Shown one piece after another: positions 46,197-52,665 of a DNA stretch of 64,000 nt (the stretch's first letter is position 1; every line of letters starts with the position of its first letter). The notes under the pieces were generated by a model. That model saw only the letters and a list, made by a program, of their open reading frames with translations. It had not been told where the DNA came from and ran no database searches. The DNA is from a candidate division FCPU426 bacterium (GTDB lineage: Bacteria; Oederibacteriota; Muellerivitia; Muellerivitales; Muellerivitaceae): the NCBI GenBank assembly GCA_027452205.1, contig DAIDGV010000007.1, positions 1 to 64,000 of the forward strand, given 5' to 3'. Both the position numbers and the translations under genes were made by a program.

Positions 46197-47840
46197 TTAT
46201 TTACCCTGTTGGGCCAAATAGTTCGCCACATCTTTGATCTGGTCCGGCGTTAAAGCTTCCGCCAAGCTTTGCATAGCCGCATCGGGATTCATCTTCTGCG
46301 GATCCGTCACATAACTGGCGATATAAGCGGCATCCCGCACGGAACCGATGTGCGACAGGTCGGGGCCTATTTCCTCGCCGACCCCGTGGAATTTGTGACA
46401 AACCGTACAGTTCTCCTCGAAAATGCGGGGAGCCTTGGCGGTAAAACTTCCGCCACCCAAGCTGCTCATGTAAGCCACCAAACATTCGACCTCGCTGTCC
46501 AAAAGGTTGAAGTTGGGCATTTTGGTGCCCGGGCTGATTTTTTCGGGGTTCTTAAAGTGGTTGGCCAGCCAATTGTGGTCCCGGCGCATGCCCACGCCGT
46601 CCAAGGCGGGGCCTACCGTTCCGCCGTGTCCGTTCAAGCTATGACAATATTCGCAGTGTAGATCGGTAAAGAGCCGTTTGCCTTCCATGATCAACGGGTC
46701 TTTTTCCACTACCGGATTGGTCAGGGGCGACCTTCCGCCTTGGACGGTCAGGACGATCACGCCTAACAGGCCGGCCCATCCGGCCAATACCAGCCACTTG
46801 CGGTCCATCGGATGCCGTTTGGGTCCCTTGTCGAAAAAAGGAAGGCCCAAGAGTATCCCGACCACGATCAAGGGAAGGAGCACGATGGCGAAAGCTTCCA
46901 AGGAACCCGGGAAGTATTTCAACAACTGGAAAACGGACAAGAAATACCATTCGGGCCGGGGATTATAAGTGGTGTCCGTGGGGTTGGCTAGGTCTTCCAA
47001 ATCCGCGCCCTTCCAGATGGCCACCGCGGCGACGATGATGAACACGATGGTGATGGCGACAGTGTCCTTGAAAATGATGTAAGGCCAGAAAGATTTACCC
47101 TGATGTTTCAGTTCCAGATAACGGGCCTTCACTTTTTCTTTCCAATTCGGATCTTTGTCCGTCAAGGGGACGTCCCCAGAGCGGGAAGTCCGTTCGGGAG
47201 GCGCTGAGATGCCGTGCCAGACCACCAGGAACAAATGGAATGCCATGAAAAGAAGGGTCAAGGCAGGTAACACCAATACGTGGATGGCATAGAACCTGGT
47301 GAGGGTAATGGCGCCCAGGTCCTCGCCACCTTTGAGGATGCTACCCAGGTATTGGCCGACCATCGGGACTTGTTCGACCATTTTGGAACCGACCGTAGTG
47401 GCCCAATAGGCCTTTTGGTCCCAAGGAAGCAGGTAGCCGGTGAAACCGAATCCGATGACCAAAAAGAACAAAAAGACGCCGGATAACCAGGTGACTTCCC
47501 GGGGGAATTTATAAGATCCCATAAAAAAGACCCGGAGCATATGAAGGAACACCGAGACCACCATACCTGTGGCACCCCATTTGTGTAGGCCCCGTAAAAA
47601 GGCACCCATTGGAACGTTGTTGGAGATGAATTTTACCGAGTCATAGGCATGATCCGGTGAAGGGGAATAGTGCATGGCCAGCAAAATGCCTGTAGTGACC
47701 TGCAGGATGAAGAAGAAAAGGGTGATGCTACCCAGGGTGTAACGCCAGTCCACGCCCTTCGGGATGAGGCGGTCAAAGATGACTTCCTTGATCTTGCGCC
47801 AGCCTACCCGTTCATCCAACCAATCGAGGATCGTTTTCAT
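46197..47840 (-). CDS. cytochrome b fused to two cytochrome c domains
   Basis: This 547-residue protein is the core of a quinol:cytochrome c oxidoreductase (bc/b6f type). Residues 30-210 form the four-helix heme b part with His86/His100 and His187/His202; 14 residues separate the second pair, as in cytochrome b6. Helices near 260-365 correspond to subunit IV with the quinol-site RPEWYF (295-300). Then come two cytochrome c domains with CEYCH (396-400) and CTVCH (478-482), each with a likely Met ligand downstream (KMPNF; KMNPD). The fused diheme tail replaces cytochrome c1 or f. ATGA overlap with the Rieske gene. Confidence 0.95.
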   Translation of the reverse strand: MKTILDWLDERVGWRKIKEVIFDRLIPKGVDWRYTLGSITLFFFILQVTTGILLAMHYSPSPDHAYDSVKFISNNVPMGAFLRGLHKWGATGMVVSVFLHMLRVFFMGSYKFPREVTWLSGVFLFFLVIGFGFTGYLLPWDQKAYWATTVGSKMVEQVPMVGQYLGSILKGGEDLGAITLTRFYAIHVLVLPALTLLFMAFHLFLVVWHGISAPPERTSRSGDVPLTDKDPNWKEKVKARYLELKHQGKSFWPYIIFKDTVAITIVFIIVAAVAIWKGADLEDLANPTDTTYNPRPEWYFLSVFQLLKYFPGSLEAFAIVLLPLIVVGILLGLPFFDKGPKRHPMDRKWLVLAGWAGLLGVIVLTVQGGRSPLTNPVVEKDPLIMEGKRLFTDLHCEYCHSLNGHGGTVGPALDGVGMRRDHNWLANHFKNPEKISPGTKMPNFNLLDSEVECLVAYMSSLGGGSFTAKAPRIFEENCTVCHKFHGVGEEIGPDLSHIGSVRDAAYIASYVTDPQKMNPDAAMQSLAEALTPDQIKDVANYLAQQGK

Positions 47841-48343
47841 GCTTTGGCTCCTTCGGGGAGGATATAAAGCGTGCTGTTTTCGATCTTGGTCGGATACCGC
47901 ATAAGAGGCTTAGGAGGCGGCCCGGAAACGACGTTGCCGTCCTTAGAGAAAACACCTCCGTGACAAGGGCAAATGAAGGCCTTTTTATTGGCGTCCCAGC
48001 GGTAAGGGCATCCTAAATGGGTGCAATGGGGGTCGTAGGCAACCCATTCTCCCTTTTGCAGGACGACCCAGACAGAACTGGGGCTTTGGATGACGTTCCA
48101 ACCGTCCATTTTTCTTTGAACGAAATCGATCTTGATGGGATCACCTTCTTTCAAGCCGCTAATGGGGCCTACAGCCACCCAGTTCTCTTTTCTGCCCCGC
48201 CAAGCGGGGGACAGGAAATACAAGGCTCCACTGCCGCCAAGGACCAATGTGATGAAACTCACCATCGCGGCGATCAGACCTATCAGAAATGTTCGGCGTT
48301 GTGGATCTTCTGGCGCTCCTGAGTTGTGCTTGGTGTCTTTCAT
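47837..48343 (-). CDS. Rieske iron-sulfur protein
   Basis: This 168-residue Rieske subunit has an N-terminal Arg-Arg (PQRRTF) and one TM helix (LIGLIAAMVSFITLVLGGSGALYFL), a Tat-type anchor. The 2Fe-2S cluster boxes are CTHLGC (107-112) and CPCHGG (125-130), with two Cys and two His ligands. It takes an electron from quinol and hands it to the fused c domains. It is the first gene of the operon, with a TATGA-N6-TCATA palindrome 69-84 bp before its ATG. Confidence 0.96.
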   Translation of the reverse strand: MKDTKHNSGAPEDPQRRTFLIGLIAAMVSFITLVLGGSGALYFLSPAWRGRKENWVAVGPISGLKEGDPIKIDFVQRKMDGWNVIQSPSSVWVVLQKGEWVAYDPHCTHLGCPYRWDANKKAFICPCHGGVFSKDGNVVSGPPPKPLMRYPTKIENSTLYILPEGAKA

Positions 48344-48411
48344 GGTTCTTTGTTTTTTCCTTTTAGTGATCTTAAATCGGAATGATTTTAGGTAAGCGGT
48401 CTTTTTTTATT

Positions 48412-48427
48412 TATGAGTCGGATCATA
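48412..48427. promoter_or_regulatory. TATGA-N6-TCATA site 1 (Rieske/cyt b operon)
   Basis: TATGA GTCGGA TCATA, perfect 5-bp arms, centre 76 bp upstream of the Rieske start (minus strand). One of four such sites before the redox genes. Confidence 0.72.
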
Positions 48428-48443
48428 GAATTTAGCGGTCCTG

Positions 48444-48482
48444 AAAATAAAAAGGGCCAGCCTCCCTGAAGACCGGCCCTTC
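48444..48482 (-). terminator. terminator of cytochrome-porin operon
   Basis: On the minus strand, AAGGGCC...GGCCCTTTTTATTTTC follows the cytochrome c gene, separating it from the Rieske promoter. Confidence 0.75.
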
Positions 48483-48505
48483 ACAACTAAGGGGGTGATG
48501 AAAAA

Positions 48506-48874
48506 CTATTCTTCTTTTTTCTTCTGTATCCCTTTGAGATAAGTGGCCACAGCCTGGATCTGATCGTCGGTCATTTTGCCTTTGTAACCCGGCATCTTTT
48601 TCTTACCGTTGGTTATTTGGGTAACTACCGCGTCAGAGGTCATGGAGACCGCTTCGGCTTTGGTCAGATCCAAGGCGGTTGGTTCCACTTTCAATAACTT
48701 GGCCATCTTCGGGTTGCCTTTCGCGTCTTTGCCGTGGCATTGAGCGCATTTGGCGTCGAAGAGTTTTTTGCCTGAAACCGGTTCATCCCCGCCGATGGCG
48801 TAGGTTGAAACGAACAGGAAAAGAGCGGCGAGGATCACCCCGTAGCCTATCCCGAAACGTAATGTTTGTTTCAT
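48506..48874 (-). CDS. periplasmic monoheme cytochrome c
   Basis: This 122-residue class I cytochrome c has a signal peptide (about residues 1-28), one heme site CAQCH (43-47) and the typical C-terminal helix MTDDQIQAVATYLKGI with a probable axial Met in KKKMPGY (about 94). A Lys-rich surface (KGIQKKKEE) would suit docking to an acidic partner. It follows the Cyc2-like gene after 18 bases, so the two are one operon. It is the obvious soluble carrier between the outer-membrane cytochrome-porin and the fused c domains of the bc-type complex; this is inference from placement. Confidence 0.93.
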   Translation of the reverse strand: MKQTLRFGIGYGVILAALFLFVSTYAIGGDEPVSGKKLFDAKCAQCHGKDAKGNPKMAKLLKVEPTALDLTKAEAVSMTSDAVVTQITNGKKKMPGYKGKMTDDQIQAVATYLKGIQKKKEE

Positions 48875-48892
48875 GATGCGTTCTCCTTTCCG

Positions 48893-50161
48893 TTAAAAGA
48901 ACAGGTTCAGCGACGAAGACAAGGCGTGGGCGTAAGTGTAACCCGCCGCGGAATTCGTCATGATCAACGCGTATTGTGGATTCAGATAGATGTTTTGCAC
49001 GAATGGCGTTAAAGCGCCGAACGTGATCTTTTCCGTGTCGACATTTGAGGCGCTGATGTTAGTGGAGGTCGAATCCCAACGGATCGCCACTGGTGTCAGG
49101 TCATCGAGAGCATAATCCAATTCCCCAAAGAACCCGCCGCTGGCGGGGTTGTTAACACCCGCGACCCCGAAAATGCCGGCGTTGGTTTGACCAATCTCCG
49201 CCCCGGCCTTGATATCTAAGTTTTTCAAAGGTAAAGGGGCGTTCGCGAACAGAGCGCCATAATAATATTCTTGGCCCGTCGAATCGCCGGTGCCGGCGCC
49301 GTTCGCGACCGAAGGAATGGGTGAACCTGGGGCGGCAACGGAACCGTTAAAGCCGTTGTAGTAAGTGGCGTTGATGGCCGCTCCATCATCGCCAATGAAT
49401 TGATTGACGAAGATCTGGATGTCCTTTGCGTTATTGCTGTCGGAGGTAGGGGCGGTTTGCGCGGTTGTGGCACCCAGAGAGGAAGTGTCCAACCCTGAGT
49501 AGACGGGGGCTTGGATACCATCATAGAAAGCCAAGGTGACCCGAGTATCGTCGTGGGTATAGCCCAATTCCAACCCTGTGCCGGTCGGACGGACAGTACC
49601 GGCGATCGTGGCATTGCCCACGGGACCGCGGTCCGAACCGGCATAGCCGTCGGCCCCGAATTTACCGATTCGGACGGTGAAAAAGTCGTTCTCGCTCCCG
49701 GTCACATAGCCCAATTTGGCGTCGGAAAGGCTGGGAGATGAACCGGGGAACACACCCGTTCCGTTTCCTAAACCTAATTCCGAGTAGGCGAAGAAATTCT
49801 TGCTGAGACCGCCGCCCAAAAAGATGCTTGAGCCACCCAAGGTGAAACTTCCGTTATCCGGTGTAGCGGATCCATTGGCGTTGGTTTGCGTGGAGGCTTT
49901 TACCCCGGCGGAAAAACGCGCCGCGATGTAATTGGTCCAATCGACCTTTCCGCCGTTCATTTCTTTTCCAATGTCGGAAGGGATACGGTAACCGGCGGCA
50001 CGGAAGTTGTAACCGAACTTATTCAACTGGCCATAACCAGGGTAATGGCACATCGTACAATTGTAATTGTACATTCTCGCGAACGACGGGATCGCCCACG
50101 CCGATGGTGATCCGATCAGGCACGCGACCGCCGTCAGTAGAATTAAAGACAGTTTTTTCAT
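48893..50161 (-). CDS. Cyc2-like cytochrome-porin
   Basis: This 422-residue exported protein fuses an N-terminal heme site to an outer-membrane barrel. The signal peptide ends SAWA at residue 23. Then PSFARMYNYNCTMCHYPG gives one CxxCH (Cys35-His39) in a short N-terminal plug, with GYGQLNKFGYNFRAAGYR directly after it. From about residue 75 the rest is beta strands, ending in SSLNLFF, the barrel-closing signal. This plan and the P-x-FAR...C-x-x-CH...LN-x-FG-x-x-F-x-x-x-GY pattern are those of Cyc2, the Fe(II)-oxidising outer-membrane cytochrome, and related porin-cytochromes. The co-encoded cytochrome c and nearby bc complex support an extracellular electron-transfer role. Substrate not proven. 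Confidence 0.8.
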   Translation of the reverse strand: MKKLSLILLTAVACLIGSPSAWAIPSFARMYNYNCTMCHYPGYGQLNKFGYNFRAAGYRIPSDIGKEMNGGKVDWTNYIAARFSAGVKASTQTNANGSATPDNGSFTLGGSSIFLGGGLSKNFFAYSELGLGNGTGVFPGSSPSLSDAKLGYVTGSENDFFTVRIGKFGADGYAGSDRGPVGNATIAGTVRPTGTGLELGYTHDDTRVTLAFYDGIQAPVYSGLDTSSLGATTAQTAPTSDSNNAKDIQIFVNQFIGDDGAAINATYYNGFNGSVAAPGSPIPSVANGAGTGDSTGQEYYYGALFANAPLPLKNLDIKAGAEIGQTNAGIFGVAGVNNPASGGFFGELDYALDDLTPVAIRWDSTSTNISASNVDTEKITFGALTPFVQNIYLNPQYALIMTNSAAGYTYAHALSSSLNLFF

Positions 50162-50240
50162 TTTTCCAGCTCCTTAAAAATAGAATTTACTCAGCGGCAA
50201 TAACTTGGCGCTTAAGGTAATCAAATGTCCCCAAAAGACT

Positions 50241-50256
50241 TATGTGAGATGTCATA
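50241..50256. promoter_or_regulatory. TATGA-N6-TCATA site 2 (Cyc2-like operon)
   Basis: TATGT GAGATG TCATA, one mismatch in the left arm, centre 87 bp upstream of the Cyc2-like start (minus strand). Confidence 0.6.
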
Positions 50257-50312
50257 GACCGAAGAAATAATAGGACCTGTTTTTTGTGTTGGGTGCGGCC
50301 AGTGATCCTGAA

Positions 50313-50328
50313 TATGATTCCTGTCATA
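50313..50328. promoter_or_regulatory. TATGA-N6-TCATA site 3 (ferritin-like gene)
   Basis: TATGA TTCCTG TCATA, perfect 5-bp arms, centre 79 bp upstream of the ferritin-like start (plus strand). Confidence 0.72.
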
Positions 50329-50398
50329 AAAGTTCGGCCGCTCTTGGGATATGTTGCGCGCGGGGAAGTAACCCTTTATCTCGACCCAAGGAGCCAAT

Positions 50399-51235
50399 AT
50401 GCCGGTGCAAGTCATTGAGAAAGCCGTGCCAGTCATTCATGAGGATGTAGATGTTGATGTGGAACTTCGCAAACCCAGCGCCAAAACCTGGGAAGGCCTC
50501 TCTCAAATGGCCTTTGCCGCCAATTGGGACCCGGAAAAGGCCATCAATTGGAACCAGTCGATCGAACTGGGAGCTGTTCGGGATGGATGGGTCAATATCC
50601 TTCATTATTTTTATGAGGGCGAGTGGCAGGGCTTGGAGATCATCGAGCGATTGATGAACAAAGCCGCCCACATCTATAACATTCCCGAGATGGTCACTTA
50701 TTACTCGACCCAATGTTTCGACGAAGCCAAACATCTTTATGTTTTTCGCCGGTATTTGGAAAAACTCCAATCCCCGCCCTCGAAGCAAAGGGCATTCGAT
50801 CCGCTGGTTTGGCTGGCCACCTCGGGTCCGATGCCGGTGGAACGCTGGATATTCGGCACCTTCTTTACTGAGACTATGGCGGGGGCCATTTTTCAACGCA
50901 CTTTAGAATTACCGGCCATCGATCCTTTGGGTAAGGAAATGATCAAGTGGCAACTGAAGGATGAATCCCGCCATATCGCGGGGACCAAGCTGGGTGTTCA
51001 GACCATGATGGACCACGCGGGTCCGGTCAAGACCTGGTTCCTCAAGATGTGGTTCCGTTTGTTCTGCCAGTTGGCGGTGAAAGAAGTCCGCAACCTGAAA
51101 CCTTATGGGGACCAGGTTGGCATGGACCCCGAATATATCCTGCGTAAGTGCTTTAACAAGATGGCGGAAATGCCGGAATTCAAACAAAAATTCTTGGATT
51201 TTCCCTTAGCGGAATCTTTCCTCAAGACCGCCTAA
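50399..51235 (+). CDS. diiron ferritin-like protein
   Basis: This 278-residue soluble helical protein has the two-fold carboxylate-bridged diiron motif of the ferritin/R2 superfamily. Glu80 then DEAKH (Glu109, His112), and Glu158 (FFTETMAG) then DESRH (Glu189, His192), give the expected E...ExxH twice, about 30 residues apart. Length and order fit R2-like oxidases and AurF-type oxygenases better than iron-storing ferritin. Substrate is unknown. It is divergent from the Cyc2-like gene and carries its own TATGA-N6-TCATA site, which ties it to the redox regulon. A role in oxygen or NO handling or in cofactor maturation with the radical SAM protein is speculative. Confidence 0.82.
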   Translation: MPVQVIEKAVPVIHEDVDVDVELRKPSAKTWEGLSQMAFAANWDPEKAINWNQSIELGAVRDGWVNILHYFYEGEWQGLEIIERLMNKAAHIYNIPEMVTYYSTQCFDEAKHLYVFRRYLEKLQSPPSKQRAFDPLVWLATSGPMPVERWIFGTFFTETMAGAIFQRTLELPAIDPLGKEMIKWQLKDESRHIAGTKLGVQTMMDHAGPVKTWFLKMWFRLFCQLAVKEVRNLKPYGDQVGMDPEYILRKCFNKMAEMPEFKQKFLDFPLAESFLKTA

Positions 51236-51254
51236 GGGATCGTTGTTTTGACCT

Positions 51255-51281
51255 GAAAGGGCGCCTTCTTGCGCCCTTTTT
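51255..51281 (+). terminator. rho-independent terminator
   Basis: AAAGGGCGC(C)/GCGCCCTTT hairpin with TTCTT loop and T-run, 19 bases after the ferritin-like gene. Confidence 0.88.
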
Positions 51282-51283
51282 AG

Positions 51284-51454
51284 GGAATCATATCTTTAAA
51301 TCTCTCAAGACAAAGCAACCGCCGATCAAGACGGATGGACGCTGATAAAAAATTGTTTTTTCTGTTCTTCCACATCGGCGTTTATCTGACGTGATCGGCG
51401 GTTAAAAATATTTTCTTTAAGACTTTTTGTTATAGGGAATTAAGTATGTAAATC
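51284..51454 (+). repeat. MITE-like palindromic element
   Basis: The left end GGAATCATATCTTTAAATC and the right end GGGAATTAAGTATGTAAATC (51435-51454) are partly inverted copies. Inside are CAACCGCCGATCAAGACGGATGG and the right arm CATCGGCGTTTATCTGACG, GATCGGCGGTTAAA. It sits between the convergent ferritin-like and radical SAM genes. Confidence 0.8.
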
Positions 51455-51460
51455 CATCTT

Positions 51461-52591
51461 TTATGCCTGGGCTTTCGTAAGGTTTTTCTTTTCCCGAAGC
51501 GCCACGGGTTGATAAGCGCAGAAGGGGTCCGCGCCCATGATGCTGCCGCTCATGGCAAATCCCCGGGCCCTGGAACCGCCACAAATCTGGCGGTATTCAC
51601 ATTGACCGCATTTTCCCTGAAGCTTGTCCGGCTCCCGTAACATCTTGAAAAGGGGACTTTCTTGATAGACACGGGCCAGGGAATCGGTCTTAACGTTGCC
51701 GCCGGGGATTGGCAGGAAGCCGCTGGGGCAAACATCCCCAGTGTGGGAAATGAAAACAAAGCCACGGCCATCGCTGACACCCCGGGCGGCCCTTAACAGA
51801 CTGGTGGAAGGGTTCATGACCTCGCCCCTTTCCAACTCGCCGGCGGTCACTTCGTTACGTTGAAGGATGATCCGGCGGAAGTGGTGAGCCTCGGTTGTCT
51901 TCACGTCGTACCAGCCTTGGCTGAGAATGTCATAAAGCTGGTTCAGGACCGCTTCGGTCTCTTTAGCGTTCAAAGCTTGGTCTTTTGTGGCCCGGCCGGT
52001 CGGCACGAGGAAAAAGACCGACCAGAGGTCAATGGAAAACTTACGGATCAACTGGGCGATCTCCCAAACCTGGAACTTGTTGTGACGGCCGATGGTGGTG
52101 TTGATCTGCAGCTTGATGTCGAGCTCCCGGATGGTTTGCGCGACCTCCATGAAACGGTCAAAAGTGCCGGGAACACCCCGGAAATTATCAAAGCTCGGGG
52201 CGTCGGACCCGTCCAAGGACAAGGAAATACGGTGCACTCCGGCTTTCTTAAGCTCGATGAGCCGTTCTTTGGTCAATAAAGGGGTGATCGAGGGGGCCAA
52301 AGCGAAATTCATCCCTCTCTTCGAGCATTCCCGCACCAACAGCGGCAGGTCATCGCGCTTTAAGGGGTCGCCGCCGGTCATTACGAACAAAGGAACGGAC
52401 CAATCGGCGACTTGGTTGATCAAGTTCAAGGCTTGTTGGGTGTTCAATTCGCCAGGATAGCGTTTTGACTCCGCCGAGGCCCGGCAATGCACGCAGGCAA
52501 GGTCACAAGCCCGGGTCACTTCCCAGATGGCGATATAAGGCCGTTCGGCATAGCGAAATTGGGGCAGGTTGGGCGCAGCGGATGGACACAT
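51461..52591 (-). CDS. radical SAM/SPASM protein, AhbD/NirJ-like
   Basis: This 376-residue radical SAM enzyme has the CDLACVHC cluster motif (Cys29, Cys33, Cys36) and TGGDPL, with a C-terminal SPASM-type Cys set including CPSGFLP and CGQCEYRQICGGSRARGFAMSG...DPFC, which binds a second Fe-S cluster. CxxxCxxCRASA and GGSRARA-type signatures resemble the heme-modifying AhbD and NirJ proteins (heme b or d1 branch), and also a sporadic NirJ-related subfamily. GGAGG precedes the ATG, and TATGA-N6-TCATA lies 59-74 bp upstream. Its company with c- and b-type cytochrome genes suggests tetrapyrrole or peptide modification for this system. Exact reaction unknown. Confidence 0.86.
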   Translation of the reverse strand: MCPSAAPNLPQFRYAERPYIAIWEVTRACDLACVHCRASAESKRYPGELNTQQALNLINQVADWSVPLFVMTGGDPLKRDDLPLLVRECSKRGMNFALAPSITPLLTKERLIELKKAGVHRISLSLDGSDAPSFDNFRGVPGTFDRFMEVAQTIRELDIKLQINTTIGRHNKFQVWEIAQLIRKFSIDLWSVFFLVPTGRATKDQALNAKETEAVLNQLYDILSQGWYDVKTTEAHHFRRIILQRNEVTAGELERGEVMNPSTSLLRAARGVSDGRGFVFISHTGDVCPSGFLPIPGGNVKTDSLARVYQESPLFKMLREPDKLQGKCGQCEYRQICGGSRARGFAMSGSIMGADPFCAYQPVALREKKNLTKAQA

Positions 52592-52649
52592 GGTTTCCTC
52601 CGGGGTTTGAAGCGGTAATTGGAAGATAACCGAGGGGTCTTGAAAGTTT

Positions 52650-52665
52650 TATGACGAATGTCATA
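52650..52665. promoter_or_regulatory. TATGA-N6-TCATA site 4 (radical SAM gene)
   Basis: TATGAC GAAT GTCATA, a perfect palindrome with 6-bp arms, centre 66 bp upstream of the radical SAM start (minus strand). Confidence 0.75.

Follow-up and report, generated by a model that had tools for sequence, protein, structure and literature searches.

The closest described relatives of the system analysed here are regulators of the CRP/FNR superfamily. CRP binds TGTGA-N6-TCACA and contacts cyclic AMP (cAMP) through E72, R82 and S83. FNR of Escherichia coli reads TTGAT-N4-ATCAA and carries an N-terminal cysteine cluster for a [4Fe-4S] centre, and DNR/NnrR proteins, whose sensing of NO depends on haem, pair a TTGAC-N4-GTCAA operator with a denitrification regulon. 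FNR/ANR-type activators usually act at low oxygen, and oxidases and some oxygen-using enzymes are among their targets. Of 23 E. coli promoters that FNR activates and whose starts are known, 19 have the FNR site at −41.5, within 4 nt (PMC3688515). Here we describe a related palindrome, TATGA-N6-TCATA, found before four redox units in a 64,000-nucleotide stretch of a candidate division FCPU426 genome (the window; the whole genome, G000, comprises 2.89 Mb in 28 contigs). We propose, with a probability of roughly 0.8, that this palindrome serves as the operator for a CRP/FNR-superfamily activator of class II, and that its lead reader is an FNR-like protein with cysteines in the nucleotide pocket, encoded at G000:C22:28276-28932.

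The operator and its promoter geometry

Perfect copies of the palindrome lie at 48412, 50313 and 52650 and a copy with one mismatch at 50241, as the initial annotation had reported; all four are in non-coding DNA, outside open reading frames. By actual base frequencies 0.036 perfect matches are expected in the window, rather than the ∼0.06 per 64 kb estimated at equal frequencies; for all 2.89 Mb of G000 the expectation is 1.6. The genome holds 16, against none for the reversed operator pattern, which served as the control, and sites with at most one mismatch number 90 against 15. Thirteen of the 16 perfect sites are upstream of genes (P about 4e-10, given 12% non-coding DNA), two are within genes and one is unclear; the intragenic pair, C12:139740 and C24:191206, were treated as chance. 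The genome scan that had been set as a check thus finds the motif mostly upstream of genes and not evenly spread.

Taken by itself, the window makes a less strong case. Sites with up to two mismatches are mildly high there, at 19 against 11.4 ± 3.7, and other 5-mer palindromes at other spacings also occur three to five times, as would be seen if a few palindromes had arisen by chance in AT-rich spacers. Because those palindromes are as frequent, the window counts by themselves are insufficient. The genome-wide counts are decisive. Against the latter, together with the conserved targets and the fixed spacing to a −10 hexamer described below, chance can be regarded as already refuted. The earlier judgement that chance was unlikely is therefore borne out by the genome and its relatives, while its within-window statistics were suggestive.

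The six-base spacer is strict. In 472 kb of stretches there are 81 perfect sites at N6 and one across all other spacers from 0 to 16; these stretches were selected for N6, so only the other-spacer count is unbiased. The extended core consensus is TATGAC-N4-GTCATA, and the operator strings were not found in the literature searched.

The decisive fact, overlooked by the initial annotation, is a hexamer at a fixed distance from the operator. Among sites gathered by palindrome alone, 45 of 182 site-strands, from 42 of 91 sites, have TANNNT exactly 21 nt past the palindrome (+21), while the other offsets average 1.5 (P about 6e-49). The signal is present in G000 alone (8 of 32 strands, P about 2e-10), and all four window sites have the hexamer, as TAAAAT, TACCTT, TATGTT and TATCTT. 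If TANNNT is taken as the −10 element, spanning −12 to −7, the operator centre falls at a predicted −41.5, where FNR and CRP sit as class II activators. By these predicted starts, the promoters combine a centre at −41.5 with a −10 element, as class II promoters do. No further conserved block was found between operator and −10, as expected where an activator substitutes for the −35 element.

This geometry also bears on the suggestion that the 16-bp palindrome has a repressor as its reader, or some protein outside the CRP group such as one of the Rrf2/NsrR type. Many families use inverted repeats of such size, and the helix-turn-helix (HTH) of our candidate regulator matches Rrf2 weakly, below cut-off. 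But a site at −41.5 next to a −10 that lacks a −35 typifies class II activation and not repression, TGA-N6-TCA is the core of the CRP/FNR superfamily, and the distribution of the operator across families tracks the CRP/FNR homologue. We regard such a reader as very improbable.

The window units and the wider regulon

The four operators of the window, with their predicted −10 elements and downstream genes (start codons chosen by rule), are as follows.

48412..48427, − strand: perfect operator TATGATCCGACTCATA (− strand sequence), before the Rieske/cytochrome b operon; centre 76 bp from the start codon
48385..48390, − strand: predicted −10 TAAAAT, 21 nt past the operator; predicted transcription start near 48378
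47837..48343, − strand: Rieske [2Fe-2S] protein gene (Pfam PF00355, E 8e-15)
46197..47840, − strand: fusion of cytochrome b with two cytochrome c domains (PF00033, PF00034); 4-bp overlap with the Rieske gene
50241..50256, − strand: one-mismatch operator TATGACATCTCACATA (− strand sequence), before the Cyc2-like/cytochrome c operon; centre 87 bp from the start
50214..50219, − strand: predicted −10 TACCTT, 21 nt past the operator; predicted start near 50207
48893..50161, − strand: secreted protein, called Cyc2-like from inspection only, with one CxxCH haem motif and a probable outer-membrane barrel
48506..48874, − strand: c-type cytochrome (PF13442, PF00034)
50313..50328, + strand: perfect operator TATGATTCCTGTCATA, before the AurF-like gene; centre 78 bp from the start codon
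50350..50355, + strand: predicted −10 TATGTT, 21 nt past the operator; predicted start near 50362
50399..51235, + strand: AurF-type di-iron oxygenase homologue, ferritin-like superfamily (PF11583, 40.6 bits vs cut-off 29.6)
52650..52665, − strand: perfect operator TATGACATTCGTCATA, before the radical SAM gene; centre 66 bp from the start codon
52623..52628, − strand: predicted −10 TATCTT, 21 nt past the operator; predicted start near 52616
51461..52591, − strand: TIGR04053 radical SAM/SPASM protein, related to the haem b synthase AhbD (434 bits vs cut-off 395)

Centre-to-start distances of 76, 66 and 87 bp stand as first annotated, and the 79 bp given for the ferritin-like gene was recounted as 78. 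That gene was placed in the right superfamily and is now identified as a homologue of AurF-type di-iron oxygenases, and the radical SAM gene belongs to TIGR04053. For the Cyc2-like protein, the signal peptide, the single CxxCH and a likely barrel were seen, but no Pfam or NCBIfam model matches it and the label is not confirmed. A second AurF-like gene, a paralogue of the window copy, adjoins the cytochrome c oxidase operon elsewhere in the genome (L028:903-1727, on G000:C20).

Several of the window genes have site-bearing counterparts in relatives. The Rieske orthologue of G005 likewise has the operator and the −10; the homologue of the Cyc2-like gene in G001 has a perfect site 225 bp upstream, and cytochromes related to the c-type cytochrome carry a site in G001 and G005. 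The operator also precedes the radical SAM homologue in G001, G003, G005 and G006. By their kinship labels, eight genomes including G000 form one family, f1, and in four of its members perfect sites exceed the control (G001, 20 v 1; G003, 15 v 0; G004, 8 v 0; G005, 22 v 0). Enrichment is weaker in genus g3, with 3, 6 and 5 sites, and in the remaining phylum counts are generally near control level, apart from a few exceptions such as family f11. Conservation in relatives had been set as a further check, and the motif is enriched in family members, with the same targets recurring in three to five genomes.

The regulon was listed from stretches around perfect sites and some one-mismatch sites, and is a sample because only the DNA around sites was read. 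Targets recurring in five genomes each are the TIGR04053 radical SAM protein, a cupredoxin-like operon, a cation P-type ATPase and a histidine kinase (one case weak). RIC/ScdA iron-sulphur (Fe-S) repair proteins, hemerythrin and the regulator gene itself recur in four each; fatty-acid desaturases, cytochrome c oxidase subunit II, an AAA/kinase-like protein and a nitronate monooxygenase-like protein in three each; and c-type cytochromes, Rieske and a phosphoenolpyruvate carboxykinase-like protein in two each. BluB, cytochrome bd subunit I (in G006) and a membrane pyrophosphatase are single cases. The protoporphyrinogen oxidase gene at C11 was set aside as a firm target, its nearest site lying 248 bp off and without a −10, and no denitrification (nir/nor/nos) genes are among the identified targets. 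The coherent redox regulon first described is thus supported and far larger than four units, and "redox" was apt, many recurrent targets being oxygen-using or concerned with nitric oxide (NO) or Fe-S repair. The targets suggest control by oxygen, NO or Fe-S status.

The regulator and operator could be as we propose and the signal be an excess of O2 or NO, inducing oxygen-using and repair genes. Cytochrome c oxidase, the desaturases, BluB, the AurF-like oxygenase, hemerythrins, the repair protein RIC and the cytochrome bd of a relative all fit such a signal; the general low-oxygen action of FNR/ANR-type activators, whose reach includes oxidases and some oxygen-using enzymes, argues the other way. 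We hold this signal to be a serious contender, at somewhat under even odds.

Beyond family f1, four genomes of family f4 (L158-L161) have a perfect operator and −10 before a gene for an 816-amino acid fusion of CoA-disulfide reductase, rhodanese, TusA and DsrE. In f4 and f12, a NifU-domain (Nfu-like) gene is next after the FNR-like regulator homologue (L185-L192) and is preceded by a one-mismatch operator with a −10 at +21 in all eight genomes examined. This NifU-gene operator suggests a link to Fe-S that predates family f1.

The DosR hypoxia/NO regulon of Mycobacterium tuberculosis resembles the operator regulon in the kinds of gene it holds, and not only in the cation-transporting ATPase. 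For the ATPase, ctpF is listed in the DosR regulon (PMC3095998). DosR itself, in contrast, is a two-component response regulator and not a CRP/FNR protein.

The candidate regulator

Six genes of G000 exceed the Pfam cut-off for CRP/FNR proteins. The lead candidate is a 219-amino acid protein with a cNMP-binding-like β-roll and a Crp-type HTH (PF00027, E 2e-20; PF13545, E 1e-14), which place it in the superfamily; its AlphaFold model has a mean predicted local distance difference test score of 83, and Foldseek matches it to CRP-family structures. It scores below every curated cut-off of the NCBIfam NtcA, CRP, FixK, FNR, FnrL and FtrB equivalogs. Two one-mismatch sites lie just upstream of its gene; one of them is 89 bp from the start and is followed by a −10 at +21. 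In G001, G004 and G005 the orthologous genes are preceded by perfect sites, each with a −10 at +21. A CRP/FNR gene bearing the site had been sought as a check, and the lead regulator has its own operator upstream in all four genomes; a CRP/FNR-family reader, as first supposed, is supported by this self-sited gene, the genome scan and the relatives. A second copy with the cysteines described next (Cys-type) lies about 2 kb from the lead regulator.

Four cysteines, C72, C83, C84 and C93, are invariant in 10 of 10 aligned Cys-type regulators and lie where CRP has its cAMP pocket. In an alignment with E. coli CRP and FNR, the place of CRP E72 is taken by T, that of R82 by A or P, and that of S83 by C. 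Since no cysteine precedes C72 in the 219-residue protein, the FNR-type arrangement is absent. The cluster is missing from the non-Cys paralogues and from the f4 and f12 homologues; Chloroflexi homologues (L135-L142) also lack it and were put aside. From the conservation of the cysteines we infer that they would hold a metal, Fe-S or NO-reactive centre, and through them the protein may sense O2, NO or a redox-labile metal centre. Comparable regulators with a Cys pocket were looked for in the literature, and no relevant match emerged. The locus L131 (JAJPJW010000039.1) encodes a regulator of the FCPU426 family type, 60% identical.

The system differs from each described relative. With FNR it shares the superfamily, the −41.5 class II position (PMC3688515), the V-E-T-x-x-R helix (TVETCIR in the lead regulator, TVETISR in FNR) and a respiratory regulon; the half-site is ATGA in place of TTGA, the consensus is TATGAC-N4-GTCATA and not TTGAT-N4-ATCAA, and the cysteines are in the nucleotide-pocket region in place of an N-terminal cluster for [4Fe-4S]. 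The extended core is one base off DNR/NnrR in each core half-site, which starts with A, plus an extra outer T, where that of DNR/NnrR starts with T. NO and Fe-S repair targets are alike, but the DNR/NnrR combination of operator and denitrification genes is not found here, and we know of no cysteine cluster as a DNR feature. CRP has the same half-site size, spacing and, by Foldseek, overall fold, but its second half-site base is G where A stands here, its R180 position is V here and its cAMP contacts are replaced. The genome also holds two close pairs of another palindrome, the CRP-like TGTGAAA-N2-TTTCACA (G000:C19:6247 and C19:6309; C24:337093 and C24:337176); this may be what the sixth CRP/FNR paralogue binds, its helix SVREVVSR being CRP-like.

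Regulator and promoter signature occur together. Across 39 phylum genomes, the signature (operator with TANNNT at +21) is present in 17 of 18 with a regulator homologue (E below 1e-30) and in 2 of the 21 that lack one (Fisher P 6e-8). When f1 is left out, the figures are 10 of 11 and 1 of 20 (P 3e-6). Both P values ignore relatedness of the genomes. By family, the agreement is clean in f1, f2, f4, f10 and f12 and unclear in f11. Homologues are present in metagenome-assembled genomes named candidate division FCPU426.

Weighing the reader, and what the regulon means

The existence of the operator, its spacing to the −10, its recurrent targets and its co-occurrence with the regulator type are backed by sequence statistics. 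In the proposed mechanism a regulator dimer would bind two half-sites centred at −41.5, the predicted target sequence of the lead regulator being TATGACNNNNGTCATA. With the operator adjoining a TANNNT −10 and no −35, RNA polymerase would be recruited in class II style, and the regulator would control its own gene and respiratory, oxygen-using and Fe-S/NO-repair genes within a network of CRP/FNR paralogues. Such networks are described: in Dinoroseobacter shibae, several CRP/FNR paralogues, FnrL and Dnr, cross-control in low-oxygen adaptation (PMC5398030), although FnrL has an FNR-type Fe-S cluster and TTGA-type sites unlike those here.

Several further observations weigh against our proposal. 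G007 has five sites, three of them signature matches, and no regulator was found in this 84%-complete genome; about half of all sites are without TANNNT at +21, and these may act in a different mode or be inactive. Kinship among the genomes means that the counts are not fully independent. Low-oxygen induction of the FNR/ANR kind and induction by O2 or NO are each compatible with the targets. Finally, five of the six G000 paralogues have a helix of the ETxxR type in common, and these might bind as well.

That shared helix leaves room for the main reader to be one or several of the paralogues without the cysteine cluster (G000:C17, C8 and C3), or else the other Cys-type copy, within a cascade that has the lead protein as just one member. 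Cluster-less homologues adjoin the operator in f4 and f12, and cluster-less CRP/FNR paralogue genes of G001 (L085, L134) have one-mismatch operators upstream, hinting at a cascade. Yet in G004, which is 97% complete, a profile search finds just two Cys-type copies where there are eight perfect sites against none, and the conserved sites before a regulator's own gene belong to the Cys-type copy. We rate a reader of this kind as plausible, at about one chance in three. Our confidences in the several readings overlap because the paralogue and signal questions are independent of the operator question. We infer that the lead paralogue is the main reader and acts as an activator.

The likely reader is thus a previously undescribed FNR relative with cysteines in the usual signal-binding pocket. 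Tentatively, and with rather less than an even chance, it represents a new CRP/FNR sensor design, in which a site of four cysteines (Fe-S or another thiol, metal or NO centre) has taken over the nucleotide pocket of a class II activator that, through a new operator, governs oxygen-related metabolism across one family of FCPU426 bacteria. The proposed sensor would be unlike the N-terminal cluster of FNR, and the operator types known to us in the superfamily gain one with A at the second half-site base, accompanied by an S-to-I difference from FNR in the helix. No regulons of candidate phylum FCPU426 turned up in the literature searched; the analysis yields one for which the operator, the geometry of its promoters and a candidate regulator are described and dozens of start sites are predicted. 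The little-known TIGR04053 radical SAM family thereby gains a regulatory context common to five genomes, and the regulon indicates oxygen use and repair systems in this FCPU426 family.

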